Assembly (NCBI RefSeq): GCF_000379525.1
Contig: NZ_KB902463.1
Location: forward strand, 47,921 to 95,032
Direction of reading: 5' to 3'
From: Lamprocystis purpurea DSM 4197
GTDB taxonomy: Bacteria; Pseudomonadota; Gammaproteobacteria; Chromatiales; Chromatiaceae
DNA: 47,112 nucleotides
The number at the start of each line of letters is the position of its first letter. The first letter of the stretch is position 1. Below are positions 12,356 to 37,018 of the stretch, in pieces. The notes under the pieces are model-generated. The model had not been told where the DNA came from. It ran no database searches and saw only the letters and a list, made by a program, of their open reading frames with translations. The position numbers and the translations under genes are program-made.

Positions 12356-12373
12356 CTACCCCGGCTGGGCAAA
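12279..12373. repeat. Direct repeat, copy 2
   Basis: Partner of 9250-9345 in the same orientation. It covers the last codons and the stop of the propeller/SDR gene and the bases just after it. Confidence 0.8.
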
Positions 12374-14890: not shown

Positions 14891-15085
14891 CGTGTGGACC
14901 CTAGGCGCGATCAATCGATTCAACGCTGTCTTCTGCTTGCAATACGACGGATGGAAGTCCACCCGACCCCATTGGACTCGGAATGGCTTGGGACAGTCGA
15001 TTGGGAAAAGACCGATCGCCGGTCAAGATACGATTTGTCAACACACGCCATCTCCGTGACCGAGCCGCCCGCTTGGGCCGGAGGT

Positions 15086-15925
15086 CTAGTGGTCGGCAAG
15101 AAAGCCGTCGATATGCTCTACCAACAGCATGGGTTGGAGCAGGGGGAACAGATGGCCGGCATTGGCAATGGTCCTGCTGGTCAGGGACGGCATCAGCGTC
15201 TCGAGCGCAAGGAGGGTCGGCAGGAACCTCGAGCGTCGACCGAAGAGCGCGAATGAGGGCATCGCAATTGCCGCGATCTCCGTTCTCCCGAGACCCGTCC
15301 CGTCGGGCAGATCGCAAGTCGCGCTCGTCTGCTCGACCAGTTGACGCCACTTCTTCAACCGCCGGGAATCACCAGCAATGTCGGGAGGCCCGAGCAGGCT
15401 CATCAACGGCGCGGCAGCCCCATCGCGCTCGCGATGCTCGATCAGCTCCTCGATAAATCCGTACGCGACGCGCGGCAGCTGGTCATATTCCTTCAGACCC
15501 GCCGCGGCAAGTCGACCCCGCTGGGCCTGCCAAAACGCCTTCCCGATCTGCTGCAACGAGGGCACCCAGGCATCGACGAGGCTCAGAGTCGCACCACGAT
15601 GCGGATGCCGCGCAGCACACGCCAGCGTCACGGCCCCGCCGAAGCTGTGACCGACCAGGTGCGCCCGGGCGATACCGAGGTGATCGAGCAGCGCGATGAG
15701 ATCGTCCGCAAGATCGATCGCCCGATAACCGGTTGGCATACACTCGGTATGTCCATGGCCACGCAGGTCATACACCGTCACCCGAAAGCGCTTGGCCAGC
15801 ATCGGCGCAACGGTGAGGTACCAGAACGCCAGGTTGCAGAACAGGCCGTGCACCAGGACCAGGTCCGGCCCTTGACCGATCTGCTGGTAATGGACGGAAA
15901 TGCCGTTGATGCGCACACGAGGCAT
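15086..15925 (-). CDS. Alpha/beta hydrolase
   Basis: A 279-residue cytoplasmic alpha/beta-fold hydrolase. It has an HG oxyanion motif (VLVHGLFCN), DLRGHG, the nucleophile elbow GHSFGG with Ser94, and a likely catalytic His258 in NAGHLFP. No signal peptide. It starts seven bases after the stop of the phosphodiesterase gene, so the two are cotranscribed with the ACP and synthase genes upstream. The synthases have no fused thioesterase, so this is a good candidate for chain release or editing, though it could equally be an esterase for another step. The family does not fix the substrate. Confidence 0.85.
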   Translation of the reverse strand: MPRVRINGISVHYQQIGQGPDLVLVHGLFCNLAFWYLTVAPMLAKRFRVTVYDLRGHGHTECMPTGYRAIDLADDLIALLDHLGIARAHLVGHSFGGAVTLACAARHPHRGATLSLVDAWVPSLQQIGKAFWQAQRGRLAAAGLKEYDQLPRVAYGFIEELIEHRERDGAAAPLMSLLGPPDIAGDSRRLKKWRQLVEQTSATCDLPDGTGLGRTEIAAIAMPSFALFGRRSRFLPTLLALETLMPSLTSRTIANAGHLFPLLQPMLLVEHIDGFLADH

Positions 15926-15932: not shown

Positions 15933-17549
15933 TCACAGATAACCCAACGCCTTCAACCGCTCGCGGATCTGTGCCTCGGCCTCCGGCGACAGGGTCTCCA
16001 GGTCCCCCTGGGCGTCGACCCGCCCGATCGCTTCCCCTTCCGCGAAGCGCACCGGGTGCGCATCGAGATGGCCCGACTCGTAGATCGACTCCGGCACTCT
16101 GCCCTCGAGCTCGGGTGAGAGCGGCAATCCCAGGCTGTAGAGCAGGATCGGCGTGATGTCGTTGATCGACAGCGGCTCGACCCGGGCATTGCACCGAAGG
16201 CCTGGTCCCGCTGCGATGAAGATGCCGTCGGGATGATGGGTGGCATAGGGCATCGGACGCGGCTTGATCGACGCGTCGGCCCGCAGCACGGACAGGAATC
16301 CGAGATCCGCCAACACAATCGTGAGGTCCGGCGCCTGCTCACCACTGATCCCCGGGAAAACCTCGTCCCGGGTCATAACGCGGGTGATCATGCGCTCTCC
16401 GGTCTGCGGATCGCGGACCTCGAGCAGCTTGCGCACCAGCGCGTCGCGGAATTGCGGATACTCGTCGGCGGTGACTCCCGGCTCGCCGGGTCCACGCGCC
16501 TTGCGGATATGAATGGCGTTGCTGCTGGAGCTGAAGGCAAAGGCCTTGGTCTGCGACCAATCGAAGAGGGTGCCCACCTCCGTATTCTCATCCAAGGCGA
16601 CGCGGGAATCGCTGTCGATGGGCGCGTCATCACGCCAGCGCAGGTAACCGTTTTCCGCCAGCCAGGTGTTGGCGTAGAAGATCCTGTCGCCGGCGAGCGC
16701 AAAGCCGTGATCGGATGCGACCACGATGGTCGCTTCCGGCCCCGCGGCGGCGATCATTTCCCCGATAAACCCATCGAGTTCGCGGTAGTACTGCAACGCC
16801 AGATCACGCGCCCGAAGCGATGCCGGCGACCCGTAACGGCCCGCGGTCTGCTTGTCGATCAGGTGATAGCATAGGTGCTGGATACGATCCGTTCCGTCGT
16901 ACAGCACCGCGGTCAGCTCGGCCGGCTCCTCCTCCATCAGGAACTTGAGGATTTCGAACCAGCGACGCTCGCGCACCAGGTGGAACTGCACCCAGTCCTC
17001 CAGGTTGTCCTCCGCGAGCCCCTGAACGGCCTGGCGCTCCTGCTGCCAGTCCGTCGCCAGCTCTTTGGCGTTGAACCCCTGTCTCTCCCTGATGCGCGCA
17101 TACAGCTCCCGCGGATACACCGCCCGCGCCAGATAGCTCCAGGGAACATAGCCGGGGATGATATTGGCACCTTCGAGCCTGGGGGCTGGAAACATCATCG
17201 GGAAATTGAGACAGGTCACCTTGCACCCCTGGCGTGTCGCCATAGACCACAGGGTCTCACACTTGACGTCCGATGCGTTGGCGAGCGTGTAGCTCGGCGG
17301 ATCGGTGGTGCAGTCGACCCTGATGAAGTCGTATACGCCATGATTGCCCGGCGTGCGGCCGGTCATCAGTGTCGTCCACGCCGGCGGCGTCAATGGATGT
17401 GCCGTCGACACCAAGGGTGCCCGCACACCACGCTTGATCAGGTGGTTCAGATTGGGCATGACTCCGTCGCCCATCAGGGGATCGAGCAGGGCGAAGGTCC
17501 CCCCGTCGACACCGATGAGCACTGTCTTGCTGGACTTGCATGAAGACAT
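15933..17549 (-). CDS. Type I phosphodiesterase / alkaline-phosphatase-superfamily protein
   Basis: 538 residues. Metal-binding and catalytic features of the nucleotide pyrophosphatase/phosphodiesterase family are visible: Asp15 in GVDGG, Thr59/Thr60 in PPAWTTLMTGR (nucleophile), Asp218 and Asp221 with His225 in YDGTDRIQH, Asp280-His281 in SDHGF, and a late HHPDG. No signal peptide, so probably cytoplasmic. The ATG at 17549 follows AGAGGA with seven bases spacing. Enzymes of this superfamily hydrolyse or transfer phosphate, phosphodiester or sulfate esters. Lying between an ACP and a hydrolase, with a sulfotransferase-like gene at the head of the cluster, it may act on the lipid product's head group; that is inference. 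Confidence 0.88.
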   Translation of the reverse strand: MSSCKSSKTVLIGVDGGTFALLDPLMGDGVMPNLNHLIKRGVRAPLVSTAHPLTPPAWTTLMTGRTPGNHGVYDFIRVDCTTDPPSYTLANASDVKCETLWSMATRQGCKVTCLNFPMMFPAPRLEGANIIPGYVPWSYLARAVYPRELYARIRERQGFNAKELATDWQQERQAVQGLAEDNLEDWVQFHLVRERRWFEILKFLMEEEPAELTAVLYDGTDRIQHLCYHLIDKQTAGRYGSPASLRARDLALQYYRELDGFIGEMIAAAGPEATIVVASDHGFALAGDRIFYANTWLAENGYLRWRDDAPIDSDSRVALDENTEVGTLFDWSQTKAFAFSSSSNAIHIRKARGPGEPGVTADEYPQFRDALVRKLLEVRDPQTGERMITRVMTRDEVFPGISGEQAPDLTIVLADLGFLSVLRADASIKPRPMPYATHHPDGIFIAAGPGLRCNARVEPLSINDITPILLYSLGLPLSPELEGRVPESIYESGHLDAHPVRFAEGEAIGRVDAQGDLETLSPEAEAQIRERLKALGYL

Positions 17550-17639: not shown

Positions 17640-17921
17640 CTAGCGCAACGCCTCGATCGACTGCACCAAATCGCCGACCTTCATGTCTTTCAGTTGCGTG
17701 CCGTCGGTACGCAGCTGATTGAACAACCGGTCACCCAGCCCGAGTTGCTGTTGCAGCTCGGCGATGAGATAGACGAGACTGATGGACTCCATTCCGAGGT
17801 CGACCAGCCGGGTGTCAGCGGAGATCTCGCCGGGATCCCAATCCTCCGCCACGTCTTCGATCAGTGCACGAATTGCCGCGAACACCTCGCCCGCACCCAG
17901 TGAATCGTCTTGCTCTACCAT
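17640..17921 (-). CDS. Discrete acyl carrier protein
   Basis: 93 residues, the normal size for an ACP. The phosphopantetheine attachment site is LGMESIS with Ser46. Acidic surface residues and three helical segments fit the family. It starts nine bases after the stop of the KS-AT-DH-PPTase gene, so it belongs to the same transcript. Since that synthase has no ACP domain, this carrier, together with the two ACPs of the other synthase, is a likely substrate carrier for it or for the release/tailoring enzymes. The PPTase domain next door would activate it. The ribosome site is weak; coupling to the upstream gene is likely. Confidence 0.93.
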   Translation of the reverse strand: MVEQDDSLGAGEVFAAIRALIEDVAEDWDPGEISADTRLVDLGMESISLVYLIAELQQQLGLGDRLFNQLRTDGTQLKDMKVGDLVQSIEALR

Positions 17922-17930
17922 GATGAAACG

Positions 17931-20900
17931 TTAAACCCCCGCAAACAGAACAGCAAACGCCAGCACCCGCGAGGCATCCATGTCGCGAGTCAGTACCGTT
18001 GGTGCGGCGGCGCCACGCCGCTCCAGCTCGGCCTTCAGCTCGCCGTGCAGATCGACCTCGACCCGCCCGGACCCGGCGTCTATCGCGCGCACTTCCACCT
18101 CCCGCAGCAGATTGCCCAGACCCCGGTGCAACGCCTTCGCGACCGCCTCTTTCGCACACCAGCAGGTGATCATAACGCGCTCAGGTTGCCGCTGTGCTGA
18201 AATCAGGGCTCGCTCTGCCGGGGAGAACGCGGTCTCGGTGAAGCCATCGGGCTTGGACTCGACCCCCTCGATGTCAATGCCGACGCCGAGACAGGCATCG
18301 GCCTCGCCGGCGAGGGCCACGGCGGTGCGAGCGGCGTGGGCGATGGAGAGATGCGGCGGCGCGCCCGATGCCGCATGCGGGTCCCAGGCAACGAATGGGT
18401 GTCCGTCCTCGCCGATGACCACCTCGATCTCCGCCGCAGCGGGCATCGAAGCCATGCGCCGACCCATCAGGACGCGAGCGGCATCCTTGGCGCAGACCCG
18501 CCCGAGCAGCCACTCGATGCGGCGCTTGACGGCCGCATCGGCCATCGCCTGCCAGGTGGAGCGCTCGCTGCGCCCGAGCACCAGATGCGCAAGCACGCGC
18601 AGCCAGATCTGGCCACTGGAGGTCAGGATCTCGTGGGGCAAGTCGTCGAGCACCACGAGGCTCAACCGCGCCGCCCCGACCTCACCGCCGAGCAGGTCGG
18701 GTCTGGGCTCGGCCAGCAATTGAGAGGCCGGCTGACACCGCAGGCGGAAGAAGCGGGTCGGCAGGTCGAAACGCTTGTCCCACCAGCCGCCGATGCGCTG
18801 CTGCAGAGTGCCGTCGGCGCGGATCAGCTCGATATCCGATCTCACCTCGGTGTCGCCGACCAGCGTGATCCTGGCCCGGCAACGTGCCCGCTCGCCGGGT
18901 GCCAGATTGGGTCCGTAGATCTGCAGCGACTCCATGCGGAACGGAAAGACGTGAAACCCCCGCGGGAGATGATCCGCCGTCCACATGCCGATGAGCTGCC
19001 CGGCCGCGTCCAGGGTGATGGCGTCGGTCTGGAGCACCGGCGCCGCGGTGGATCGGAACAGACGGCCGTGGTCCAGCCCCAGGAAGGTGCCCTCGCTGCC
19101 ATCCTCGCCCCACAGATCCATCGAGGCGATCGCCCGCAGGCGTGGGCCGTGGAACATGATCTCCCGGTAGACGTCCTCCGGGCGCCAGCGCGACGGACGC
19201 TCGGCGCGAAACGGCAGCGCATCCGCGACCGGGGGGGGCGGGCGCTCCGCGGCGAGCAGGATATCGGCTTCGATGATCGTGACCGGCGGCAGGCGCGGGT
19301 CGCGGGCCGGACCTGGCGGTTGCCGAAGGGTGACACGGACCACCTGCGCCCCGGGGATCGGCTCGGCATGCAGCAGGAGCTCGATCTCGCCGCGATCCAG
19401 GGCGATCCACTGATAGGCCCGGACCTCGCGCATCCCGACCACGACCAACCCGGGCATCAGGGCCGCAGCTGCCTCCGCCATCAGCTCCATGCTGAATGTA
19501 AGTGGCACCACGGGCAGCGCGCCAAGCTCGGGATCAGCGGACGAGATGTCGCGGCCGATGGTATGGTCGGCGAGGTACAGGCTCTCGCCCAGATCGATCC
19601 TGACCCGGCTGGAAAGACGCACCCCCGGCACCAGCTCGTCGATGGGACCGAGCATGGGCCAGGCGGACGCCGCGTCGGGCGGGCGCTGGTCCGCGAGATC
19701 GGCTGCGGCGCCGTTCTGCCCCAGGTAGGTCTCCATGATGCGCTGCTGGCAGCGCAGGAAGCTTCCCATAGTGCCGAACCAGGTGTCGAGGACCTCGGCG
19801 CCCGCGTCGGACTCCGCCACCGCAGGCAACGCGCCATGCTCCACCCCGACCCCAGTGGCCAGCTCCGCAAGCCGGGGCATTTCGCGCAGCTCGGCGCGTG
19901 CGGCAGGCTCGGCAGGGGCTTGCGGCTGGGCGGGCCGGGCCGGCGCTCGCTCCCGGGCCGAGCGCGATAGACGCAGCGGCTGCAACCCGGTCCTGATCGG
20001 AACCGAGCGGCGGACCGACCTCTCGCCGGCGACAGCCGCCTCTTGCGGGTACAGAACCGCCAGGTCCATCGGCACGCCTTGTGCCGCGAGCTGCGCCAAC
20101 AAATGCAGGAACTGGGTCACGCCGTGCTGATGCTCCAGGTCGCTCGGCAACGCAAGGTGTGGCCTGCCCTTGAGCACGTCATCGACGAAGGCCGTGAGAT
20201 TGTTGCGGGGTCCGCACTCGACGAAGAGACGCACCCCATCGGCATACATGCGCTCGATGCTCTCACGGAAACGCACGCGCCCCGCCCACTGCCCGATCGC
20301 CAGGCGCCGGATCTCGGCCGGATCGTCCGGCATCGGTGCAGCGGTCAGGCATGAGTAGATCGGCGTGCTGGGTGTCGCGATGTCCAGGCGCTCGAAGAAT
20401 ATGCCCAGTCCATCACAGAAGGGTTGAAACGCCGGGGTATGGTAGGCACGATCGAACGGCAACGGGGTTGACATCCCACCCAGATCATCCAGTTGTCCCC
20501 GCAACCAGGCCGCCGCCGCGTCGGTCAACGCGCATACGACCTGCTGGTGTGGGCAGTTGTCCATCGCCCAGTGCAGGTCGTCGCGCGCCGCCACCAACCC
20601 GGCGATCGTTTCGGGCTCGAGTCCCGCCACGCCGATCAGGCGGCCCCGCGCCACCAGCCCGCGCTGCTCAAGCTGCTCGTAATGGAGATTGAGCGCCAGG
20701 ATGTCGTCGAGCAGCCTCTGCTCGTTGTCGTATCGGTTGGCACCGGCCGCGTACAGCGCCGAGTACTCGCCGGTACTGTGCCCGAGCATGGCGGCCGGCC
20801 GGATTGCCAGGGCCTCGAGCAGGCTGTACATCGCCTGGTTGGCCGCAAATACCGCCTCCGGACCGATGTCCATGCGCCACAGTGCACCGTCATCCATCCT

Positions 20901-22859
20901 GTCGCCGCCTTCACCCGCGGGGGCGGGCGGCGGAAAGATGACCTCGCTCGGCAACAGGCTGCGCGGATGATCGCGCAGCGCCCGGTCGATGCGGTCGAAC
21001 CAGGCACGAGCCGGCGGAAAATGCAGGCACAGCCCGGCCAACATATTGCGGTACTGGGAGCCCTCGCCCGGAAAGAGGAAGGCGATCTTACCCTCCGGAT
21101 AAAGCGGCTCGGCGAAGAAATAGATCCCATCGCGGGATCGGAACCGCCCGCAGCCCTGGTCGGCCAGCTTGGCGGCGGCGCGCTCCAGCTTCGCTGCGGC
21201 CTCGGCACGACCGGCAGCGACCACGGCGAGCCGCCACGGCTGCGCGCCGAGCCTTGTACAGAGCCGCCGGGCATCGGCGTACAGCGACCCGTCGCCGTCG
21301 GCAGCGAGCGCCGCGGCCTCGGCGCGTACGCGCTCGACCAGCTCCGCGCGCGAGGCGGCCTCGACCACCAGCAGCTCACTCGGCCGCGGCCAATCGAGCG
21401 GATCGGTCACGGATTCGGGACCCTGGTATTCCTCCAGGATGAGGTGCGCGTTGATTCCGCCGAACCCGAAGGCGTTGACGCCGGCGCGCCGCGGGGTGGT
21501 GCCGCCATGAATCCAGGGCCGCGTCTGGGCGCTGATGTAGAACGCAGAGCCGTCGAGCGCGAGTTCCGGATTCGGATGCTCGCAGTGCAGGGTCGGCGGC
21601 AGGGTCTTGTGGTGCAGCGACAGGGCGGTCTTGATGATCGCGGCCGCCCCCGCAGCTGGCAGACAGTGTCCGATCATCGACTTCACGGTGCCCAGGGCGC
21701 ACCAGGGCCGTCCGCACTCGGGTGATCCGAAGACCTCTTTGAGCGCCGCCACCTCGGTTGCGTCACCGACCGTGGTCCCGGTGCCGTGGGCCTCGATCAG
21801 ACCGACGCTGCGCGGATCGATGCCGGCGGCCTCATAGGCGCGGCGAAGCGCTAGCGTCTCGCCCTCGAGCCGCGGTGCAAGCAGCCCCATGGCCCGGCCG
21901 TCGCTGGCGATACCGACCGACTTCAACAGCGCATAGATCCGATCGCCGGCACGCCGGGCATCGCCGAGCCGCTTGAGGATCAGTATCCCCAGGCCCTCCG
22001 CGAGCAGGGTCCCGTCGGCGTCGCGGTCGAAGGGGCGAATCTCACCGCGTCGCGATATCGCCCCGAGCTGGCAGAAGATCTGGTAGATCGGCGGCGGCGT
22101 CGATGCATGGACGCCACCGACCACCGCCAGATCACAGCGACCGGCCCGCAGGTCGTCCATCCCGCGGCCGGTGGCGATCAGCGACGACGCGCAGGCCGCG
22201 TCGATAATGTAGTTGACGCCCTGGAAATTCAGCCGGTTGGCGACCCGGCCGGTGACCAGGTTCGGGATCAGTCCAGCGATCATCTCGGGATTGAACGGCG
22301 GCAGGTTGGCCTTCAGCTCCGCCTTGATCGCCGCGAGATCCTCCTCGCTGTGCTCGGGATGCAGGGTACGCAGGACATCGAGCACCCGGTCGATCACGAC
22401 CCCGTGCTGCACCACGGTCGTGAAACCACGGTTGATATAGGTGCCGCGACCGAGCACGATCTCGACCCGATCACCCGGCAGCGGCGCCTGGAAAAAAGCC
22501 GCATCCTCCAGGGCCCGGTGCACCAGGTCCAGCGCCAGGAACTGGTCCGGCTCGCCGCCGTCGATCGAGCTGGGCACGACACCGTACTTCAGCGGATCGA
22601 AGCGTGCCAGGTCGCCGAGGAAACCGCCTTTCTTCGTATAGATACGGTCGTTGGCATTCGACTCCGGATCGTAGTAGAGATCGGCCCCCCATTCCGGCGG
22701 CGGCAATCCGACCAGGTCCCGGCCCCCGACGATGTTCTGCCAATAGGCACGCCGATCGGCCGAGCCCGGGAAGATACAGTCCATCCCGACGATCGCGATG
22801 TCTTCCTGAAGGGCCTCCCGGCCAGTGCCGCCGGCCGGGGGTTGCGACGAGTGCGCCAT
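17931..22859 (-). CDS. PUFA/secondary-lipid-type synthase: KS-AT-DH-PPTase
   Basis: 1642 residues from the ATG at 22859, two bases after the stop of the partner synthase; a GTG at 22898 would add 13 residues and overlap it. Ketosynthase about 20-477, with Cys223 (DACASS), His358 (HGTGT) and His398 (GHC), all present, so it is an active KS rather than a chain-length factor. Acyltransferase about 590-900, with Ser695 (GHSTGEY) and His807 (RAYHTPAF); the Arg expected for malonyl binding is not seen (region ALNLHYEQ). A linker, then a double-hotdog dehydratase about 1070-1360 with His1099 (LADHTIG) and Asp1284 (LDAAGQ). C-terminal 4'-phosphopantetheinyl transferase about 1430-1642 with GIDIE (Asp1529) and WCAKEAVAK. 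There is no ACP or KR. It must work with the partner protein and the discrete ACP in a lipid- or polyketide-building cycle. Confidence 0.93.
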   Translation of the reverse strand: MAHSSQPPAGGTGREALQEDIAIVGMDCIFPGSADRRAYWQNIVGGRDLVGLPPPEWGADLYYDPESNANDRIYTKKGGFLGDLARFDPLKYGVVPSSIDGGEPDQFLALDLVHRALEDAAFFQAPLPGDRVEIVLGRGTYINRGFTTVVQHGVVIDRVLDVLRTLHPEHSEEDLAAIKAELKANLPPFNPEMIAGLIPNLVTGRVANRLNFQGVNYIIDAACASSLIATGRGMDDLRAGRCDLAVVGGVHASTPPPIYQIFCQLGAISRRGEIRPFDRDADGTLLAEGLGILILKRLGDARRAGDRIYALLKSVGIASDGRAMGLLAPRLEGETLALRRAYEAAGIDPRSVGLIEAHGTGTTVGDATEVAALKEVFGSPECGRPWCALGTVKSMIGHCLPAAGAAAIIKTALSLHHKTLPPTLHCEHPNPELALDGSAFYISAQTRPWIHGGTTPRRAGVNAFGFGGINAHLILEEYQGPESVTDPLDWPRPSELLVVEAASRAELVERVRAEAAALAADGDGSLYADARRLCTRLGAQPWRLAVVAAGRAEAAAKLERAAAKLADQGCGRFRSRDGIYFFAEPLYPEGKIAFLFPGEGSQYRNMLAGLCLHFPPARAWFDRIDRALRDHPRSLLPSEVIFPPPAPAGEGGDRMDDGALWRMDIGPEAVFAANQAMYSLLEALAIRPAAMLGHSTGEYSALYAAGANRYDNEQRLLDDILALNLHYEQLEQRGLVARGRLIGVAGLEPETIAGLVAARDDLHWAMDNCPHQQVVCALTDAAAAWLRGQLDDLGGMSTPLPFDRAYHTPAFQPFCDGLGIFFERLDIATPSTPIYSCLTAAPMPDDPAEIRRLAIGQWAGRVRFRESIERMYADGVRLFVECGPRNNLTAFVDDVLKGRPHLALPSDLEHQHGVTQFLHLLAQLAAQGVPMDLAVLYPQEAAVAGERSVRRSVPIRTGLQPLRLSRSARERAPARPAQPQAPAEPAARAELREMPRLAELATGVGVEHGALPAVAESDAGAEVLDTWFGTMGSFLRCQQRIMETYLGQNGAAADLADQRPPDAASAWPMLGPIDELVPGVRLSSRVRIDLGESLYLADHTIGRDISSADPELGALPVVPLTFSMELMAEAAAALMPGLVVVGMREVRAYQWIALDRGEIELLLHAEPIPGAQVVRVTLRQPPGPARDPRLPPVTIIEADILLAAERPPPPVADALPFRAERPSRWRPEDVYREIMFHGPRLRAIASMDLWGEDGSEGTFLGLDHGRLFRSTAAPVLQTDAITLDAAGQLIGMWTADHLPRGFHVFPFRMESLQIYGPNLAPGERARCRARITLVGDTEVRSDIELIRADGTLQQRIGGWWDKRFDLPTRFFRLRCQPASQLLAEPRPDLLGGEVGAARLSLVVLDDLPHEILTSSGQIWLRVLAHLVLGRSERSTWQAMADAAVKRRIEWLLGRVCAKDAARVLMGRRMASMPAAAEIEVVIGEDGHPFVAWDPHAASGAPPHLSIAHAARTAVALAGEADACLGVGIDIEGVESKPDGFTETAFSPAERALISAQRQPERVMITCWCAKEAVAKALHRGLGNLLREVEVRAIDAGSGRVEVDLHGELKAELERRGAAAPTVLTRDMDASRVLAFAVLFAGV

Positions 22860-22861
22860 GC

Positions 22862-25800
22862 TCAGTGTGCCGCCGTCTCGGACGGTGTCGGATCGCACGC
22901 CGCGGTGTGCACCGCTGCTTCATCGCGCCAGGGCCCATCGCCCCAGACCACCTCCGCATCGCCCTTGGAGCCGAAGCGCAGCTCCCGGTCGAATCCCTCG
23001 CGGCCGAGCTGTGGCGGCACCGCCACGACCCCCAGGCGGGCGAACTGCTGTTTGATCTCCGGCGAGACCATGCCGGTCTTGTCCCACGGACCCCAGCTCA
23101 AGGCCACCACCCGCGACGGCCAGCGGCGGTCCAGCTCCAGGGCGAGCTTGCTCAGGATCTCGTTGGCTGCGCCATAGTCGCTCTGACCACGGTTGCCGAA
23201 ACGTCCCGCGACCGAGGTGAAGAACGCGAGGAACGCGAGGGTCTCCGGGCGTAGGCGGCGACTCAGCACGAAGCCGCTCGCGACCTTGGTATCGACCACC
23301 CGGTCGAACGATTCCCCGGTCTTGTCGCCGATGCGCTTGTCCTCGACGATGCCTGCCCCGTGGACCACGCCGTCGATGCGCCCAAAGCGTTCGTAGAGTG
23401 CATCGATGAGCCCCCCGAATGCCGCCTCGTCGCGCACATCCACGGATCGATACTCGACCTCGGCACCGGCAGCGCGACAGGCATCCAAACTGGCGCGGAT
23501 CTCGCGCGCCTTTTGGATGCGCCGAAACTCGGACTCGATCCGGGCCAGCTGCACCGCGGCCCCGCTGCGCCGCAACCGCTCGGCAAGCCTGGCCTTGAGT
23601 TCGCGCGCGTCGGTGATCCCCCGGATATCGTCCGCCTCGCTGTCCGGCAGCGGTGAACTGCCGCACAGGATCAGCTTCGGGCGATAGAGCCGCGCCAGTT
23701 CCTGGGCGATCTCCGCGGTGATGCCGCGGGCACCGCCGGTGATCAGAATCACCGATCCGGCATCCAGGAGAATCTGCGGCGTCCCGCCGCCGAGTGGGGC
23801 ATAGCGGGCAGGAAAGCAAAGACGCCGGCCGGCCTGATAACCGATCTCCACCGGGCCGCCGTCGGGGACCGCTTCGACGAGCAGGCGCTCTGCGATCTCA
23901 ACAGGGGTTGCGGTCTCCCCAAAGTCCACACACCGGCAATGGGCGGACGGCCATTCCTTCACCAGCGTCTTCAACAGGCCGCCGGGGCCGGCGTGATCGA
24001 CACGCAACCCGGCACCAGGGTTGCCGATTCCGAGATCGCCGCCCAACCTGACCGCCGCCACGACGACGCACCCGCGATCCCCGCCCAGCTCCGGATCGAA
24101 GACCATCGCCAGATTGAACAGGCTCTTGGTCCCGATGCGCACCGTCTGCAGCCACTGGGCCAACGTCAGCTCATCGAAAGCGGGCGCCGGGCGCAGCGGC
24201 AGGCAGTGGAAGATCCCCGCCAGCGCGGCCGCTGCCGGCAGCGACTCGCGCAGCCCCTGCACCGCGTGCGAATCGGTCAGGTCGAGGCACCGCACCCCGT
24301 CCCCGGCGGCACCGGCGGGACCATGGCGCAGCAGGATCGGCTCCGCCCCATGCTCGCGCAGGCGATCCACGAGGCGTTGCGCAACCCCCTCTTCGTCGTC
24401 CGTGACCAGATAGATCGCCCCCCTGTCGCAGACGAAGGGCACGCTGCTGTGCGGCAGCGGAGCCGGCTCGATCAGGAAACGCGGCAGCTCCGGGAGGGCG
24501 GTCCGCGGCCCGGCCTGCGCCGGCACGGCCGCAGTCCCTCCCAACAGGCCAGGCGCCGGACTGGATGCCGCTGCCGGCGCCTGCACGGCGCCGCCCAGCG
24601 TCGCGAAGCGATCGATGATGCCGCGCAGGGTGCGCTCATGGACCGCCTGCTCCACCACCGCGCGCACCGTCGCGTCCCCCCCATCGGGGAACAGCCGCTT
24701 GCGGAAGGCACCGAGGATCTCGGTGCGCTTGATCGAGTCGATCCCCAGGTCCGCCTCGACGTTCAGGTCCAGATCCAGCATCTCCGGCGGATACCCGGTG
24801 CGCTCGCCGACCAGTTCGAGCAGCGCCGTGCGCAGGGCCTCTGCATCCAAGGCCCCAGAGGGCTGGGCGGGCTGCGCCGGCGGGGCCGTTGCGGCACCTG
24901 CCAGCGTCGCGAAGCGATCGATGATGCCGCGCAGGGTACGCTCCTGGGCCGCCTGCTCCACTACCCCACGCACGGTCGCGTCCCCCCCATCGGGGAACAG
25001 CCGCTTGCGGAAGGCCCCGAGGATCTCGGTGCGCTTGATCGAGTCGATCCCCAGGTCGGCCTCGATGTTCAGGTCCAGGTCCAGCATCTCCGGCGGATAC
25101 CCGGTACGCTCGCCCACCAGCTCCAGCAGCACCGTGCGCAGAGCGCCTTCATCCAGACCCGAAGATGGTTGGGGTGGCTCCGCCGGCGCAGGGGGGCTTG
25201 CCGGAGCGACAGTGGATGCAGGCGCCTGGCCTCCGGGCGCCTGGTCCGCGAATACCGCCGGGGTCTGGGGTGCGGGCGTCGCCACCGCGGCCGACGCGAG
25301 GACACCCGGGTGCTCCAAAGACAGGGTTGCCCCGGGCGCAGCGGCGGCGCGATGCCCGCGCCCCTGCAGATAGGTGAGCATGACCCGGGTCTGGGTCTCC
25401 AGAAACTGGTTGTTCAGGCGCAGGTACTGGGCCATCACCTGATCGGAAGACGCGGGGAGTCCCGCAGCGGCGACCGGCGGCGGCGCGGCCGGCGCAGGGG
25501 CGGCGGGCGGCGCGACCGCAGGCTGCTCGGGTGCGCTGGTCGCCGCCACCGGCGCAGCCAGTGTGGCAGGCGGCGGCTGCCGCTTCGACACCCGCGGCTC
25601 GGCCCGCGGCCGGACGTAGCCTCCGTTCACCAACCAGGTGCTCGGGCTCGGCGCGGGGCCCTGGGCCGCCTCAGCCAACCGGTTGATATCGATGGACTTC
25701 GCGTTCCGGTTGGCGAAGAGTCGCGCCAGGCTCAGATCGACACCTGCCGCGGCGAGCTGGCCGAGCAGGTGCATCAACTGGACGAGCCCCGAGCGCTGTG

Positions 25801-28800
25801 GCGAGTCGGACGCCAGCGCCATGTGGGGGCGGTCACCGAGGATGCGCCCCACCAGTTTGGTCAGCACGCCGTGGGGACCGACCTCAACGAAGAGCCGGGC
25901 GCCATCCTCGTACATCGCGCCGATCTGATCGACGAAATTGACCGGACTGACCAGGTGCCGCGACAGCAGTGCGAGCACCTCTGCCGGCTGCTGGGGATAG
26001 CGGGCGGCGGTCACGTTGGAGTACACAGGCAGCGCGGGCGGGTGCATCTGCACGCGTGCGAGTTCGGCGGACAGCCGCTCGCTGGCCGGTGCCACACAAG
26101 GGGAATGGAAGCCACAGGCCACCGGTATCCGCCGCACCGACAGGTCCGCCCGCTCCAGCACATCAATTGCCGCGGTGACTCCCGCGGAGGTGCCCGCAAT
26201 GACCGTGAGGTCCGGCGCGTTGCGGTTGGCGACCCGGACCTCGGAGTTGCCCTCGAGCAGGGCCGCCACTGTGTCGGCGCCGGCGGAGACCGATGCCATG
26301 GTGCCGAGGTCCTCGCCCGCTGCCTCGACGATACAGCGGCCGCGCAGCTCCGACAGCCGCAGCAGGGTCGGCCGGTCGATCACGCCGGCCCGGTGCAGGG
26401 CGACATACTCGCCGTAGCTGTGGCCCGCCACCATCGCCGGCGCGAGCCCGAACGACTCCAGAAGCCCCAGCATCGCGAGACTGGCCGCACCGATCGCCGG
26501 CTGGGCGATCTCGGTGCGGGTCAGCTCCGCGCGCTGCGCCTCGGCGTCGGCGTCCGTGAAGGCGTGGGGCGGAAAGACCCGATCAGTGAGCCTCCCATCC
26601 AGCACATCGGCCAGCACGGCGTCGGCCTCGGCGAAGGTAGCGCGCACCTGTGCGAAATAGAGGGCCAGATCCCGCAGCATGCTCGGATACTGAGAGCCCT
26701 GGCCCGGGAACAGGAAGGCAATCGGGGCATCGCCGAGGGACTCGCCGGCGCCGAAGAACACCCCGCGGGGATCGATCATCTGCACTGCGGCCCCCGCCGG
26801 GACGCCTTGATCGCTACCCAGCCAGCGCGCGGCAGTCGCAAGGCGCTCGCGCAGCTCGGTGCCCCCCCCGGCGACGATCGCGAGACGGGCCGGGGCGCGG
26901 GGGTCGAAGCGTTCCACCAGGCTGAGGCCGAGATCGGCCAGGGACAGGCCGGCGGCCTCGGGCAGTTGGGCGGCGATCACCTCGACGGCACGTGCCAGCT
27001 CGGACCGGGAGCCGGCGCTGAGCACCAAGAGTTCGACGGGCCAGTGCGCCCGCAGCGATTCGATATCCGCGGCGGCGAAGGCGCCGCGATACTCCTCGAG
27101 CACCGCATGGAAGTTGGTGCCGCCGAAACCGAATGCGCTGACACCGGCACGCCGCGGCTGGCCGTCGGGGCGTGCGATCCAGGGTCGGCTCTCACCGAGC
27201 ACGTAGAAGGGACTGTCGGCCGCGGCCAGGACCGGATTCGGACGCTCCACATTGAGCGTCGACGGCAGCACCTGATGACGCAATGCCAGCGCCATCTTGA
27301 TCAGGCCGGCCGTACCGGCAGCGGCCTTGGTGTGGCCGATCATCGACTTGACCGAGCCCAGGCCGCACGACTTCGCGGTCGCCCGGGCCTCGGAGAAGAC
27401 CTCGGACAGGGTCTCGACCTCCGCCTGATCCCCCGCCGAGGTCCCGGTGCCGTGCGCCTCGATCAGACCGACGCTCGCCGGGTCGATCCCCGATCTGCCG
27501 TAGGCTCGCCGCAGCGCCAGCGCCTGGCCCTGCGGCCGGGGCGCGGTGAGGCTCTTGTCACGACCGTCGCTGGAGCCCGCCGTCCCCTGGATCAGGGCAT
27601 GGATCCGGGCCCCCTCCCGCTCGGCGTCTGCCAACCGCCGCAGCACGACGACGGAGACGCCCTCGCTGATCGCGATGCCGTCGGCATCGGCATCGAATGT
27701 CCGGCAGCGTCCGCGCGGAGAAAGGGCGCGGGTCTTCGAGAACGCCAGGAAATCGAAAGGGTTCTGGAATGAGTCCGCACCACCGACGATGACCATGTCG
27801 CTGCTGCCGGTCTCAAGCTCGCGCACGGCGAGGGTCACGGCGGCGAGGGACGACCCGCAGGCGGCATCGACCGTGAAGTTGACGCCGCCGAGGTCGAAGC
27901 GGTTGGCGACCCGCCCGGCGGTGATGTTGAGCAGGACCCCGGGGAAGGAATCCTCGGTCCATTCCGGCAACTGCTCCAGTATCCAATCCGGGACCTCGCC
28001 GATCAGCGACGGCAGCGACGAGCGCACCGCGTAACGCTGACCCAGGGCCCCGGTGCCGCCGCCGACACCGATGATCACCGATGTGCGTTGGCGAAGCTGC
28101 GCATCGGCGATGACACCGTTCGGGTAGCCCGCATCTTCGAGGGCCGCCCGCACCGTTTCGAGGACCAGCAGGTGCAGCGGCTCGATGGACCGCAATGAGT
28201 TGGGGGGAATGCCGTAGCGCAGGGGATCGAAGGGGTAGTCTTCGATGAAGCCGCCCCACTTCGAGTAGACCTTGTCGCGGGCGCCGGGGTCCGGGTCGTA
28301 ATAGCGCTGCCAGTCCCAGCGGTCCTCCGGGACCTCCTGGATTGCATCGACGCCGTCGAGGATGTTCTCCCAATAGCTGCCGAGATCCGGCGCCTTCGGC
28401 AGGATGCAGCCCATACCGACGATGGCGATCCGGGCCGGGCTCGGCACCACCTGGGGCAGCCCGTCCTGCAGCCCGCCGAGGGCCTCCAGATAGCGCGTAC
28501 CGCCCTCGCACAGGTCCTCGTGCAGCTCGGTGATCGTCGTGACCCGGTCGCGGATCCCGGCGATCTGCCCGATCATGTAGAGGCCCTCGGCGCGTTGGTA
28601 GTCGGTGTCCACCGGGCTGAGCCTGGCGGCACCGGCTACCTTACCGTAATCCGGGTTGCGGACGACACCCTTGGAGGCGATGCGCAGGCGCCCGACGTTG
28701 AATTCCTCGAGCCGGTCGCGGACCTCCTCCGGCGCCGCACCCGCGGCGGCGAGGCGCTCCTTCTCCTGGCTAAACGCCGCGGCGAACGACGTCTCGGCGC

Positions 28801-30586
28801 ATCGAGTCACGTGACCGGGGCCGGATTCGAGCTCGATCGTGCTGTGGCACTCGCGCATGACCGACTGGAAGTCCGGGACCACGGCCCCGGTCTCGACCGC
28901 CTCACGGGTGAAGATGTAGGCGCTGCCGATCAGCACGCCGATTCGGCAGCCACGCTCGGCGAGACCGGCCGCCAACACCGACACCATCGCCGCCGAGCGC
29001 GCATCGTGTATACCTCCGGCAAACAGCACATGGCAGCGGTTGGCCTCCGATGGCGGGAGCGCATCCAGCAGCACCGCGATCATCTCCTCCCACAGCACGA
29101 AGCTCGAACGGGGGCCCACATGTCCCCCGCATTCGCGCCCCTCGAAGATGAACCGCCGCGCGCCGGCGTCCAGGAACAGACGCAGCAGCCCCGGAGAGGG
29201 GACATGCAGGTAAGTCGGGATCCCCTCCGCCTCCAGTGCCATGGCCTGCTCTGGCCGGCCGCCGGCGATGAGGGCGAAGTCCGGCCGCGCACGGCGAATC
29301 AGGGCAACCTGTTCCTCCCGCAGGTCCTGCTGGACGAACCCGAGGATACCGACGCCCCATGGACGACCGGCGACCGCGTCGCGCGTCGCATTCAGCAACG
29401 GCTCGGCCTCGGCCGCGCGCATCAGTGCCAACGCCAGGAACGGCAACCCACCCCCTTCGGCCACCCGCGCCGCGAAGTCCGGCCGGTCACTCACCCGTGT
29501 CATCGGGCCTTGCACGATGGGGTATCGTGTACGATGGGATTGGGCAAGGGGTGAGCCCGCTGCCAATGGCCGCAGGCGCACAGCGGCATCGACATGGTGC
29601 ACGAGTGCCTGGATCAGCGCCTCCGTGACGCCATACACAGTTCGATACTTGGTTGCCAGGCGCGCCGCGAAACACGCATCCTGACCGATTGGCCAGACGC
29701 TACGCGCAGGGGTATAGGGATCGACCGCGGCGCGCTGCGCCGCCCGCCACGCTCGGCGGGCAACCGCAGGATCTTCGGCGACGCAGAGTTCGGCCGCCGT
29801 CGCGATCAGCTGCTGCGTTTCCTCATGGCCACGACGCTGAACGAAACGAAACCCCTCGCCGCCCAGGTTGACGCAGAAGGTCTCGGAGCCGTCCATGCGC
29901 TGGAGCATTTGCCGAGCCGGCTCAGGCAGCACGGACTCCCGGACCAGCGCGAGCTCGTGATCGAGGACCACCCCGGCGGCACCGGCCGCATAGGCCGCGC
30001 CGACCGTGTGTAGACCGATTCCACCCTGAACATGAACCGGCAACGGCGAGGCCGCCGCCAGCCGCTGAAGGAGGATGAAGGCAGTCTCGCTGCCGACGCG
30101 ACCGCCCGCCTCGTTCCCCTTGGCGATCAGCCCGTCGATGCCGACCGCGGCACCGAGTGCCGCCTCTGCGCCACAGGTTACCTCCAGGAAGATACGCAAC
30201 CCCGAGTCGGAGCCGGCACGCAACCTCTGGATCAGACCCCGCAACCGGTCATCATCGGCCATCGTCAGGATCACCAGCCCGAGACGCCCGCGCAACGTAT
30301 CGGTCATGCGGGCAAAGATCCGCTCTTGGTCACCCGCAACCTTGATCCCGATCGGACCAGGTGCAAAGCCCGCGAGCCGCTCGAGGGCAGCCCAGGTGCC
30401 GGGGTGATCCGGATCGGCGAACTCCAGATTGAGGACACCGGAGTGGCCCGCCCGGCTCGCCGCGATGGCGATGGCCGGATCCAGACAATATGCCGGCGTC
30501 AATGCGGTAATCGAGAAGGACAGGCTTCTAGCTTTCATAGCTTGGGCGTCGAGACCCGGAAGATTGTTGATCCATAACCTGACCAT
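22862..30586 (-). CDS. PUFA/secondary-lipid-type synthase: ER-like x2-KS-AT-ACP-ACP-KR
   Basis: 2574 residues. Residues 20-330 and 355-700 are two nitronate-monooxygenase/PfaD-like FMN barrels (GNEAGGRVG near 157; GRECGGHVGP near 483), probably acting as enoyl reductase in cis. Ketosynthase 718-1170 with Cys910 (DAACGSS), His1045 (HGTGT) and His1085 (GHTKAAAG). Acyltransferase 1288-1600 with Ser1390 (GHSYGEY), Arg in LRGRC and His1494 (GFHSP), fitting malonyl use. An Ala/Pro-rich linker, then two near-identical ACPs with Ser1849 and Ser1951 in the PUFA-type LGIDSIKR motif. Ketoreductase about 2270-2500 with GGARGI, Ser2458 and Tyr2471. No dehydratase. The ATG at 30586 has AGAG upstream. Known PUFA synthases keep the ER (PfaD) as a separate protein; here it is fused at the N-terminus. 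Product not predictable; a long-chain lipid is likely. Confidence 0.93.
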   Translation of the reverse strand: MVRLWINNLPGLDAQAMKARSLSFSITALTPAYCLDPAIAIAASRAGHSGVLNLEFADPDHPGTWAALERLAGFAPGPIGIKVAGDQERIFARMTDTLRGRLGLVILTMADDDRLRGLIQRLRAGSDSGLRIFLEVTCGAEAALGAAVGIDGLIAKGNEAGGRVGSETAFILLQRLAAASPLPVHVQGGIGLHTVGAAYAAGAAGVVLDHELALVRESVLPEPARQMLQRMDGSETFCVNLGGEGFRFVQRRGHEETQQLIATAAELCVAEDPAVARRAWRAAQRAAVDPYTPARSVWPIGQDACFAARLATKYRTVYGVTEALIQALVHHVDAAVRLRPLAAGSPLAQSHRTRYPIVQGPMTRVSDRPDFAARVAEGGGLPFLALALMRAAEAEPLLNATRDAVAGRPWGVGILGFVQQDLREEQVALIRRARPDFALIAGGRPEQAMALEAEGIPTYLHVPSPGLLRLFLDAGARRFIFEGRECGGHVGPRSSFVLWEEMIAVLLDALPPSEANRCHVLFAGGIHDARSAAMVSVLAAGLAERGCRIGVLIGSAYIFTREAVETGAVVPDFQSVMRECHSTIELESGPGHVTRCAETSFAAAFSQEKERLAAAGAAPEEVRDRLEEFNVGRLRIASKGVVRNPDYGKVAGAARLSPVDTDYQRAEGLYMIGQIAGIRDRVTTITELHEDLCEGGTRYLEALGGLQDGLPQVVPSPARIAIVGMGCILPKAPDLGSYWENILDGVDAIQEVPEDRWDWQRYYDPDPGARDKVYSKWGGFIEDYPFDPLRYGIPPNSLRSIEPLHLLVLETVRAALEDAGYPNGVIADAQLRQRTSVIIGVGGGTGALGQRYAVRSSLPSLIGEVPDWILEQLPEWTEDSFPGVLLNITAGRVANRFDLGGVNFTVDAACGSSLAAVTLAVRELETGSSDMVIVGGADSFQNPFDFLAFSKTRALSPRGRCRTFDADADGIAISEGVSVVVLRRLADAEREGARIHALIQGTAGSSDGRDKSLTAPRPQGQALALRRAYGRSGIDPASVGLIEAHGTGTSAGDQAEVETLSEVFSEARATAKSCGLGSVKSMIGHTKAAAGTAGLIKMALALRHQVLPSTLNVERPNPVLAAADSPFYVLGESRPWIARPDGQPRRAGVSAFGFGGTNFHAVLEEYRGAFAAADIESLRAHWPVELLVLSAGSRSELARAVEVIAAQLPEAAGLSLADLGLSLVERFDPRAPARLAIVAGGGTELRERLATAARWLGSDQGVPAGAAVQMIDPRGVFFGAGESLGDAPIAFLFPGQGSQYPSMLRDLALYFAQVRATFAEADAVLADVLDGRLTDRVFPPHAFTDADAEAQRAELTRTEIAQPAIGAASLAMLGLLESFGLAPAMVAGHSYGEYVALHRAGVIDRPTLLRLSELRGRCIVEAAGEDLGTMASVSAGADTVAALLEGNSEVRVANRNAPDLTVIAGTSAGVTAAIDVLERADLSVRRIPVACGFHSPCVAPASERLSAELARVQMHPPALPVYSNVTAARYPQQPAEVLALLSRHLVSPVNFVDQIGAMYEDGARLFVEVGPHGVLTKLVGRILGDRPHMALASDSPQRSGLVQLMHLLGQLAAAGVDLSLARLFANRNAKSIDINRLAEAAQGPAPSPSTWLVNGGYVRPRAEPRVSKRQPPPATLAAPVAATSAPEQPAVAPPAAPAPAAPPPVAAAGLPASSDQVMAQYLRLNNQFLETQTRVMLTYLQGRGHRAAAAPGATLSLEHPGVLASAAVATPAPQTPAVFADQAPGGQAPASTVAPASPPAPAEPPQPSSGLDEGALRTVLLELVGERTGYPPEMLDLDLNIEADLGIDSIKRTEILGAFRKRLFPDGGDATVRGVVEQAAQERTLRGIIDRFATLAGAATAPPAQPAQPSGALDAEALRTALLELVGERTGYPPEMLDLDLNVEADLGIDSIKRTEILGAFRKRLFPDGGDATVRAVVEQAVHERTLRGIIDRFATLGGAVQAPAAASSPAPGLLGGTAAVPAQAGPRTALPELPRFLIEPAPLPHSSVPFVCDRGAIYLVTDDEEGVAQRLVDRLREHGAEPILLRHGPAGAAGDGVRCLDLTDSHAVQGLRESLPAAAALAGIFHCLPLRPAPAFDELTLAQWLQTVRIGTKSLFNLAMVFDPELGGDRGCVVVAAVRLGGDLGIGNPGAGLRVDHAGPGGLLKTLVKEWPSAHCRCVDFGETATPVEIAERLLVEAVPDGGPVEIGYQAGRRLCFPARYAPLGGGTPQILLDAGSVILITGGARGITAEIAQELARLYRPKLILCGSSPLPDSEADDIRGITDARELKARLAERLRRSGAAVQLARIESEFRRIQKAREIRASLDACRAAGAEVEYRSVDVRDEAAFGGLIDALYERFGRIDGVVHGAGIVEDKRIGDKTGESFDRVVDTKVASGFVLSRRLRPETLAFLAFFTSVAGRFGNRGQSDYGAANEILSKLALELDRRWPSRVVALSWGPWDKTGMVSPEIKQQFARLGVVAVPPQLGREGFDRELRFGSKGDAEVVWGDGPWRDEAAVHTAACDPTPSETAAH
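24600..25152 (-). repeat. Tandem duplication encoding two ACPs, 306-bp period
   Basis: The two ACP-coding stretches (24600-24845 and 24904-25152) are nearly identical at nucleotide level. The serine-to-serine spacing is 102 codons, which gives the 306-base period. This points to recent duplication or gene conversion inside the synthase gene. Confidence 0.9.
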
Positions 30587-35434: not shown

Positions 35435-36973
35435 TCAGTCCTCCTGATTCTTGAAATCCTCATAATCGCCGATTACAAAGACCAGTTTCTGGCGATCAGC
35501 CAAGAACATTTCAGTGCTCGAGACGCCGTAACCCGCATAGATCTTGGTACCAAACTGATTCTCTGCACTGACCGGCAGCCGCTCGAGATCGACCATAAAG
35601 GTCTCGCTGGCAAGTGCTCCGGTGTAGACGGGCGAGAGGGAACCATCGGTCACCGACGTCCAACCGTCGCTCAACCACTGGTAGACCTCCTGGTATGGGG
35701 TTACCGCATAGATGAACATGCTTCCAGTCCGCATGTCCGGCGGCAGCTTGAGCAGATCCTCGGCGGACATCGACACAGTGACACTCAGCACCTTCGGGCC
35801 TGACTCGGTCCCGTCCCACTCCAGACGAGCGGCAGTCAAGAGCGCGGTGACATCCTGGCTGAACTGGTATTTGTCATAGTAGGCATCACCAGGTTTCGGG
35901 TCTGCGAGTATCGCGTTCTTTGATAGACCAGCCGTATCAAAACGAATTTCGCTAAGATCGATCAGGCGGAAGCTCTGGTTGTTCTGACCTTTAAAGTAGA
36001 GCTTTTTCTGCTTGTGGTCGCGAATCAACGTCGGACCGGTGTAATCATCGCCGAAGTCGGGGGTTACGTCGGTTCCATGAACCACGTCGACGTTGTTGAT
36101 CAGATGAACTGCAACCTGGAGGTAATCCTTATTCCGCAGCGTCGCGAACTCCCGCAGCTTGGCAAGTTTCGTAAAACGCGATATCGGTCCGGAGTCAGCT
36201 TTGAGACCCGTCATCTCGTTTTTCGGATTGGCGTTCTTGATCTCCGGTTTCGCCAGTTCCTTGAGCATATCAGGCCATGGCGGCTCATTGGTCAGCACGC
36301 CGATCTTGTCGATTTGGTCACCCCAATAAATATTCTGCTTTCCCTCAACCCACTCGATCAGCAGCGATTTACCGGCGCTATCATGAACGATGACGTGCAC
36401 CGGCACCGCTTTTGTAATAGGCCACACGCCCCCTATCTTCACGAAGTCGGGGCTTGCCGAATTCGTGAGTGCGTTATTCACTTCGGCAACGGTCTTGAAA
36501 TTCCCCAGAATGTAATTGACCGTATCGAGCCACAGAAGCTGTTCGGGGCCGCTGGTCCAGCGGGGATAGCTCGAGCCATCCAACCATAGAAAAGCCGCGG
36601 ACAGACCATATTCGTTCAGCCCGTCCAGCATATAGGGTCCCCCAATCCCCGGAACCTTCTTGATCCACTCAAGAGCGGTCATGCCGACGAAGCCATACCA
36701 ATTACTCCAGGTCTTGCCGGTCCACAGCCCAAATCTGGACTTCCACTCCACCCCTCGCTCAAACGCCTTCAAGGCAACCTCCCAGCCTTGGTCGACATTG
36801 GGAAAATCCAGTGTCCGCGCCGACACGACCGGCGACTGGACGCCATTGACTGGGAGGATAATTTCCGAGCAGGCTTGGCTATCGGTCACCCAGAGCCCTG
36901 AAGCGGACAACACCGTGGCCATCACGGCTTTTCTCAAGAATGCGTGAGCGCTTGTGCGGTTACTGCTGATCAT
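35435..36973 (-). CDS. Secreted choloylglycine-hydrolase-family (linear amide) enzyme
   Basis: 512 residues from the ATG at 36973, chosen because GGAG lies six bases upstream; an upstream ATG at 37018 has none. Residues 1-34 form a signal peptide with cleavage after SQA, leaving Cys35 (CSEI) as the N-terminal nucleophile of an Ntn hydrolase. ARTLDF, the DGLNEYGL region and the TNEPPW motif are the family's conserved Arg, Asn and TN regions. Thus a periplasmic linear amide C-N hydrolase of the choloylglycine/penicillin-V acylase type. The substrate in this organism is unknown; N-acyl amides such as acyl-homoserine lactones or N-acyl amino acids are possibilities. Confidence 0.88.
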   Translation of the reverse strand: MISSNRTSAHAFLRKAVMATVLSASGLWVTDSQACSEIILPVNGVQSPVVSARTLDFPNVDQGWEVALKAFERGVEWKSRFGLWTGKTWSNWYGFVGMTALEWIKKVPGIGGPYMLDGLNEYGLSAAFLWLDGSSYPRWTSGPEQLLWLDTVNYILGNFKTVAEVNNALTNSASPDFVKIGGVWPITKAVPVHVIVHDSAGKSLLIEWVEGKQNIYWGDQIDKIGVLTNEPPWPDMLKELAKPEIKNANPKNEMTGLKADSGPISRFTKLAKLREFATLRNKDYLQVAVHLINNVDVVHGTDVTPDFGDDYTGPTLIRDHKQKKLYFKGQNNQSFRLIDLSEIRFDTAGLSKNAILADPKPGDAYYDKYQFSQDVTALLTAARLEWDGTESGPKVLSVTVSMSAEDLLKLPPDMRTGSMFIYAVTPYQEVYQWLSDGWTSVTDGSLSPVYTGALASETFMVDLERLPVSAENQFGTKIYAGYGVSSTEMFLADRQKLVFVIGDYEDFKNQED

Positions 36974-37018
36974 GTCGTTCTCCGATGCAGATGTGAAGCG
37001 CCTGACCTCGACCGTCAT

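Follow-up and report, generated by a model that had tools for sequence, protein, structure and literature searches.

A two-protein lipid synthase with paired N-terminal enoyl-reductase barrels in Lamprocystis purpurea, a probable iterative synthase of a long acyl chain

A 47,112-nucleotide stretch of contig NZ_KB902463.1 of Lamprocystis purpurea DSM 4197 (the window; the source assembly comprises 6.9 Mb in 211 contigs) carries two large adjacent genes encoding the multidomain proteins P1 and P2, followed by a gene for a free acyl carrier protein (ACP). With a probability of roughly 60%, these proteins would form an iterative type I reducing synthase of a long acyl chain, belonging to that branch of the PfaA-related secondary lipid synthases in which the enoyl reductase (ER) is fused to the synthase and which also holds the Type P, Ars-like systems. 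The product would most likely be a long acyl chain that is for the most part saturated and might belong to a sulfated lipid; a sulfated head group is proposed tentatively. The system is real and well conserved. New in relation to the known layout would be a form with a second ketosynthase (KS2), free ACP, phosphodiesterase, hydrolase and sulfotransferase, and the pairing of a seemingly dead with a seemingly live ER barrel. Domains, active-site residues, clades and gene order are read from the sequence, and from these we infer catalysis, chain length, order of steps and sulfation. The cluster extends beyond positions 17640 to 30586, with the sulfotransferase gene upstream and genes for the phosphodiesterase, an alpha/beta hydrolase and a conserved protein downstream on the same strand (Table 1).

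The open reading frames (ORFs) of P1 and P2 are open and uninterrupted where the preliminary description, made from the letters of the DNA, had placed them. The likelier start of P2 would be the ATG located 13 codons inside the GTG-initiated ORF, just past the P1 stop, rather than the GTG overlapping the P1 end. That description had read P1 as two ER-like stretches followed by ketosynthase (KS), acyltransferase (AT), two ACPs and ketoreductase (KR), and P2 as KS, AT, dehydratase (DH) and phosphopantetheinyl transferase (PPTase), with a free ACP behind it. Pfam confirms these calls, finding NMO (two stretches), ketoacyl-synt, Acyl_transf_1, PP-binding (two stretches) and KR in P1, and ketoacyl-synt, Acyl_transf_1, PS-DH (26.2 bits, cut-off 23.7) and ACPS in P2; by this domain content, a full cycle of KS, AT, KR, DH, ER, ACP and PPTase is indeed held in two polypeptides. 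The suggested kinship with polyunsaturated fatty acid (PUFA) and secondary lipid synthases is likewise borne out, P1 scoring 1111.9 against the PfaA model TIGR02813 (cut-off 1010.1) and LGIDSIKR occurring twice in P1, once in each ACP. P2 reaches 556.1 and stays below the cut-off, as does the top-scoring single stretch of P1 when the genome is searched (767.6). The PPTase motif LSIAH fits hShxH of the secondary lipid synthase Types M-T and not (F/S)NxSH, as these motifs are defined in PMC3098273. The domain order is kept in relatives whose barrels are about 40-50% identical, so that a chance origin of the order is not a concern.

Phylogenetic placement was based on a midpoint-rooted tree of 65 KS domains, from which five of nine modular KSs had been dropped beforehand and which was built without enediyne, Hgl and Type M references; its PfaA and PfaC rows come from genome and plasmid loci that were assigned by score and layout and are not characterised synthases. 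The KS1 domains of ER-fused proteins form one clade (support 99/98) of 21 ER-fused rows plus genome G088, whose PfaA-like label in the tree merely reflects a gene divided between two frames. The adjoining clade consists of 12 PfaA-like KSs without a fused ER (100/99); the fork joining the two clades has 92/92, below the mark for firm support. Beijerinckia and Methylosinus, which have the Type P layout, fall inside the ER-fused clade in a subclade with G013, L020 and G136 (100/99), and the KS1 of the window lies in a different subclade from Beijerinckia indica ATCC 9039 (Type P). The KS2 of P2 belongs to a clade of its own with 12 members (99/99), apart from the KS and chain-length factor (CLF) of PfaC. 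Placement of both KSs in a well-described PUFA clade of the same layout and known product, named in the preliminary description as the result that would speak against it, was thus not found, with KS1 neighbouring PfaA and KS2 forming a clade apart. The enzyme type is nonetheless less mysterious than had been supposed, because the KS1 clade includes the Type P system of Beijerinckia, whose Azotobacter counterpart has a known product.

Secondary lipid synthase Types A-T were defined by Shulse and Allen in 2011 (PMC3098273), where Beijerinckia and Azotobacter belong to Type P, Azotobacter with demonstrated phenolic-lipid chains of C22-26, and Renibacterium salmoninarum belongs to Type M. The fused layout had been put forward as a novelty, a claim that does not hold, since fused pfaDA together with a PPTase-bearing pfaBC is already in print for Aquimarina and Flavobacterium, likened there to Renibacterium salmoninarum (PMC13291983, 2026). 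Going by the descriptions of Aquimarina TRL1, Flavobacterium N502540 and Renibacterium, which concern layout rather than sequence, barrel number or clade, these systems have an ER fused to a PfaA-like protein and a PPTase fused to a PfaBC-like protein, as in the window (PMC13291983, PMC3098273). The Flavobacteriales systems are described with polyketide synthase (PKS)-nonribosomal peptide synthetase (NRPS) genes, whereas the window has a sulfotransferase, a phosphodiesterase and a hydrolase, and the genes scanned there include no NRPS. The Renibacterium system is called uncharacterised (PMC13291983, PMC3098273). Secondary lipid synthases in general are widespread, few of them having a known product by the literature consulted. 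The layout is therefore already known. Literature searches on secondary lipid or PUFA synthases with a sulfotransferase, and on tandem ER domains, turned up no account of a system that combines KS2 and a free ACP with a phosphodiesterase, a hydrolase and a sulfotransferase.

The Cys-His-His triad is complete in KS1 in all 16 readable rows (of 17) and in KS2 in 9/9 KS2-bearing rows (of 12). In AT1, all 14 readable rows (of 17) show the malonyl-type Gln and Arg, and in AT2 none of the 11 readable rows (of 12) has the malonyl Gln. The terminal acyltransferase PfaB is likewise without Gln and Arg, and its bacterial form carries Tyr, giving GYS (PMC12895367). A PfaB-like change of Arg to Asn in AT2, which one alignment gave in 7/11 rows (with A, I, V or D in the rest), was not relied on, because a joint alignment can place Arg in the AT2 of the window. 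The sole DH found in the window system sits on P2, so that P1 and P2 would have to cooperate. In G318, G631, G537, L021 and 5/5 anammox-order proteins, a second DH is located at the P1 end. As a separate observation, in the anammox-order loci L099, L100, L101 and L102, P2 has shrunk to KS-AT-PPTase (G693) or AT-PPTase (G678, G680, G682), the DH is at the P1 end, and downstream there is a free ACP together with one or two genes resembling phosphodiesterases.

The two ER barrels differ from each other. Scanned alone, both pass the Pfam cut-off of 28 bits for NMO, barrel 2 with 58.9 and barrel 1 with 34.8. The catalytic histidine is present in barrel 2 and absent from barrel 1 in all 27 proteins compared, and barrel 1 adopts a FabK-like fold in the predicted structure. 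Barrel 1 is probably a diverged, non-catalytic partner of barrel 2 within a fused pseudo-dimer. The ER region of the window has no match to the PfaD model TIGR02814 at E 0.001 or better, compared with 608.7 bits (cut-off 449.25) for one control PfaD, and its 94.7 bits against the FabK model TIGR03151 are far under the cut-off of 453.1.

From these features the following pathway can be proposed. The PPTase of P2 would arm the ACPs; AT1 would load malonyl units, which KS1 would condense; and each turn would be reduced by the KR and ER barrel 2 of P1 and the DH of P2, with P1 and P2 acting as a complex. KS2 and AT2, the latter not looking like a malonyl transferase, may serve in starter loading, in a last extension, or in passing the completed chain to the free ACP. 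The hydrolase would release or hand on the chain, and phosphodiesterase and sulfotransferase would finish the head group.

The genes following P2 recur in relatives. Of the 22 P1 loci, 10 have a free ACP behind the DH/PPTase protein (the window, L022, L023, G318, G631, G342, two from Streptomyces, L019 and SC52), several of the other 12 being cut by contig ends, and a free ACP is found downstream in 5/5 anammox-order stretches. Profile search found no free ACP in the Beijerinckia or Methylosinus loci, both of which have type III PKS genes. An apparent fusion of the ACP to the phosphodiesterase in G318 and G631 was dismissed, as the longer frame is the ACP region read in another frame and the ACP is a separate ORF. 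The order phosphodiesterase, hydrolase, conserved protein is common to the window, G318, G631 and G709; in L022 and L023, two further genes separate the hydrolase from the conserved protein. In G318 and G631 (L046:3993-6575 in G631), hydrolase and conserved protein form one ORF, which suggests joint action. The complete gene order P1-P2-ACP-phosphodiesterase-hydrolase-conserved protein of the window is the same in the Scalindua locus L022 and in G709, the identities of L022 to the window being 57% for KS1, 57% for KS2 and 39-46% for the barrels. By profile, no sulfotransferase is present in the 20-kb stretch of G709 scanned, unlike the window and L022. Residues about 1-540 of the conserved protein, encoded at 13328-14962, match nothing in Pfam, NCBIfam or the PDB profiles and have the look of a possible beta-propeller. 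The protein occurs in 3/274 genomes of the class sample, all of them among the six with a strong P1 match (Fisher 5.9e-6), and in eight of the nine loci of the larger KS2 subclade, the ninth, L021, ending shortly after P2. As a universal marker of KS2 clusters it was rejected, for among the anammox-order 20-kb stretches it was found in G709 and not in G693, G678, G680 or G682; it is common, not universal.

Sulfation is suggested by the genes around P1. At the place of the window's sulfotransferase gene, L022 has one encoding a 49% identical protein. When positions of PF13469 matches were compared by hand with those of P1 (L019 being placed on contig C14 of G657 by matching coordinates), 11 of 18 P1 genomes had a match within 15 kb of P1 (G000, G136, G013, G318, G631, G358, G537, G541, G511, G657, G660). 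Random expectation is 1.1 of 18, and the highest count in 200,000 simulations was 7. Among seven control genomes with canonical PfaA, none had a PF13469 match on the PfaA contig (Fisher 0.008). Some of the misses are of a particular kind: in G025 the nearest match is about 23 kb from P1; G088 has its matches beside P2 on another contig; and G658, whose contig was partly seen, was scanned over six ORFs, none of which is a sulfotransferase. On a short contig of G088 (C105, L088), matches to P2, the conserved protein and a sulfotransferase were observed together.

Several points weigh against the proposed synthase and its product. To our knowledge, no product is known for any KS2-type member. The predicted structure has pLDDT (predicted local distance difference test) values below 50 at residues 487-491, inside the barrel-2 motif. 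AT2 keeps GHS in 10 of 11 rows, compared with the GYS of bacterial PfaB, and whether it has lost the Arg is uncertain for the window, in which an insertion allows two alignments. With regard to sulfation, seven of the 18 genomes (G025, G007, G342, G661, G659, G088, G658) have no PF13469 match within 15 kb, and G007 (P1 contig of 4.5 kb), G342 and G661 have none genome-wide. The control is weak, as 3/7 of its genomes have no PF13469 match at all and only 0.14 were expected by chance. Kin genomes (G318/G631; G358/G541/G511) are not independent; counted by genus, the result comes down to 8 of 15 lineages. The PF13469 family is broad and its matches cluster along genomes, and the sulfotransferases near P1 vary in place, strand, length and family. 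Finally, G013 and G136 have sulfotransferase neighbours yet fall in the Type P-like KS1 subclade; therefore, a sulfotransferase neighbour is not specific to the KS2 form.

Among other explanations, a PUFA synthase making methylene-interrupted polyunsaturated fatty acids would agree with the TIGR02813 score of P1, the KS1 clade adjoining canonical PfaA and the tandem LGIDSIKR ACPs, and with canonical PfaABCDE the window shares the PfaA-type core of KS, malonyl-AT, ACPs and KR as well as a second AT without the malonyl Gln, as in PfaB. The canonical systems differ in their separate PfaD-type ER, KS-CLF pair, FabA-type DHs and PPTase motif. P2 contains one KS and a PS-DH, with no FabA domain at E 0.01 and no CLF, against two KS and two FabA stretches in one control PfaC. 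Because the ER is not of the PfaD type (no TIGR02814 match), the DH is not of the FabA type (FabA-type DH/isomerase), a CLF is missing and the PPTase motif is that of Types M-T, the system is not a PUFA synthase proper, and this explanation is considered improbable. Also close in layout are the Type P or ArsABCD systems of Beijerinckia indica (pBIND02, L052) and, by the literature, Azotobacter, which share with the window two fused N-terminal barrels, KS-AT-ACP-ACP-KR, a DH-PPTase partner and the KS1 clade. The window synthase might then supply acyl chains for phenolic lipids to a type III PKS encoded elsewhere in the genome, in the way that ArsA is reported to provide the type III PKSs ArsB and ArsC with C23-C25 chains (PMC4824345). 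No type III PKS is among the 10 neighbouring genes scanned, however, and no match to PF02797, its C-terminal domain, was found in the genome, where with 211 contigs and no 16S match a missing gene is possible. The loci L052 and L053 do contain type III PKS genes (in Beijerinckia, one of two such genes was scanned), and the Beijerinckia and Methylosinus loci have no KS2-AT2 and, by profiles, no free ACP and no hydrolase, the Beijerinckia locus also no phosphodiesterase of the window kind. A phenolic-lipid function is accordingly given very little weight.

The fused DH-PPTase C-terminus recalls enediyne PKSs, which would fit an enediyne-like or other polyene product formed with rare or no use of the ER. 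Enediyne PKSs are single KS-AT-ACP-KR-DH-PPTase proteins, and the window differs from them in its two-protein layout with a second KS-AT; moreover, KR and DH are conserved in it along with an ER barrel whose motif is intact, so that a polyene is highly unlikely. Heterocyst glycolipid synthases (Hgl, Type F) have a KS-CLF-AT protein, and P2 contains no CLF. More serious, albeit still doubtful, is a long-chain lipid that is glycosylated or otherwise modified and not sulfated, the sulfotransferase acting on another molecule. The Streptomyces relatives and G342 have a glycosyltransferase beside P1-P2, and sugar-type epimerases follow in the window; on the other hand, no glycosyltransferase is among the 10 neighbouring window genes scanned, and the sulfotransferase is adjacent to the synthase in both the window and L022. 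A ladderane synthase was also considered. As far as is known, ladderanes are general in anammox bacteria, and P1 was found in just 7 of 62 genomes sampled from the Scalindua order; the idea was rejected.

The family of such synthases is broad but sparse. In the class sample, the double barrel was matched in 40 of 274 genomes at E 0.001 and strongly (E <1e-100) in 6/274, own genome included; in the phylum sample, 10/398 genomes match at E 1e-40, again counting its own. A contig scan with six short peptide patterns yielded eight loci, five of fused layout (Lentisphaerae, KSB1, Brocadia, Scalindua and an uncultured bacterium) and three modular PKSs. Plasmid relatives are present on Beijerinckia indica pBIND02, Methylosinus C49, two near-identical Streptomyces loci and Rhodobacteraceae SC52. 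Two fused N-terminal barrels thus occur in Pseudomonadota, Actinomycetota, Planctomycetota, Lentisphaerota and KSB1. No barrel match was obtained in either of the two other genomes of its own family in the class sample, which suggests horizontal spread. In the Brocadia genome G659, two P1-like matches were seen, on contigs C147 and C119. It is conceivable, if rather uncertain, that these synthases represent a widely scattered class, reaching from Pseudomonadota to anammox Planctomycetota and Lentisphaerota, in which a fused dead/live ER pair is combined, in the KS2 form, with a KS2-AT2 handover to the free ACP and which would make sulfated long-chain lipids not yet isolated. If this branch makes such lipids, it would provide a genetic marker for them in environmental bacteria, including some anammox genomes. 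A histidine-less and an intact barrel in one chain would, in addition, be a test case for the way in which megasynthases incorporate flavin enoyl reductases, an issue that the thraustochytrid ER heterodimer has recently brought up (PMC13311796).

Table 1. Predicted features of the synthase cluster (positions in the window; all cluster genes are on the minus strand)
Feature	Position	Strand	Evidence or remark
Sulfotransferase family protein, PAPS (3'-phosphoadenosine 5'-phosphosulfate)-type, 205 aa	30781..31398	-	Pfam Sulfotransfer_3 40.9 bits, cut-off 27; directly upstream of P1
P1, 2574 aa, ER-ER-KS-AT-ACP-ACP-KR	22862..30586	-	Pfam domains, TIGR02813
P1 ER barrel 1, residues 20-300, FabK-like fold in model, no motif-III histidine	29687..30529	-	
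P1 ER barrel 2, residues 340-700, ECGGH kept	28487..29569	-	
KS1, P1 residues 716-1165, Cys-His-His complete	27092..28441	-	
AT1, P1 residues 1288-1590, malonyl-type Gln and Arg present	25817..26725	-	
ACP a, P1 residues 1807-1879, LGIDSIKR	24950..25168	-	
ACP b, P1 residues 1909-1981, LGIDSIKR	24644..24862	-	
KR, P1 residues 2275-2530	22997..23764	-	
P2, 1655 aa from GTG start, KS-AT-DH-PPTase	17931..22898	-	
KS2, P2 residues 30-490, Cys-His-His complete, own clade	21429..22811	-	
AT2, P2 residues 604-916, without malonyl Gln	20151..21089	-	
DH, PKS-type, P2 residues 1090-1370	18789..19631	-	
PPTase, P2 residues 1451-1639, contains LSIAH	17982..18548	-	
Free ACP, 93 aa	17640..17921	-	Pfam PP-binding
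Type I phosphodiesterase / nucleotide pyrophosphatase family protein	15933..17549	-	Pfam PF01663 145.6 bits; recurs downstream of P2 in relatives
Alpha/beta hydrolase, candidate release enzyme	15086..15925	-	Pfam Abhydrolase_1 85.4 bits; recurs in relatives
Conserved protein (residues about 1-540) joined to NAD epimerase, 868 aa in all	12356..14962	-	

Further genes lie around the cluster. Near to it, a protein of secreted look with four TIG stretches is encoded at 9540-11708. Several epimerase or short-chain reductase (SDR) genes are located at 5038-6798, 991-2895 and 6837-7811, two of which look like epimerase-SDR fusions; in the Pfam scan, which covered 5038-6798 and 6837-7811, only the SDR half of the former is clear. 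On the other side, a GH57 protein (33023-35146), a choloylglycine-hydrolase family protein by Pfam (35435-37018) and a probable heavy-metal RND (resistance-nodulation-division) pump (41924-45217) are predicted. A secreted-looking protein encoded at 3105-4130 matches extracellular polyhydroxyalkanoate depolymerase (165.4 bits, cut-off 150), and relatives of it are also found near P1 in L022, G025 and G318.

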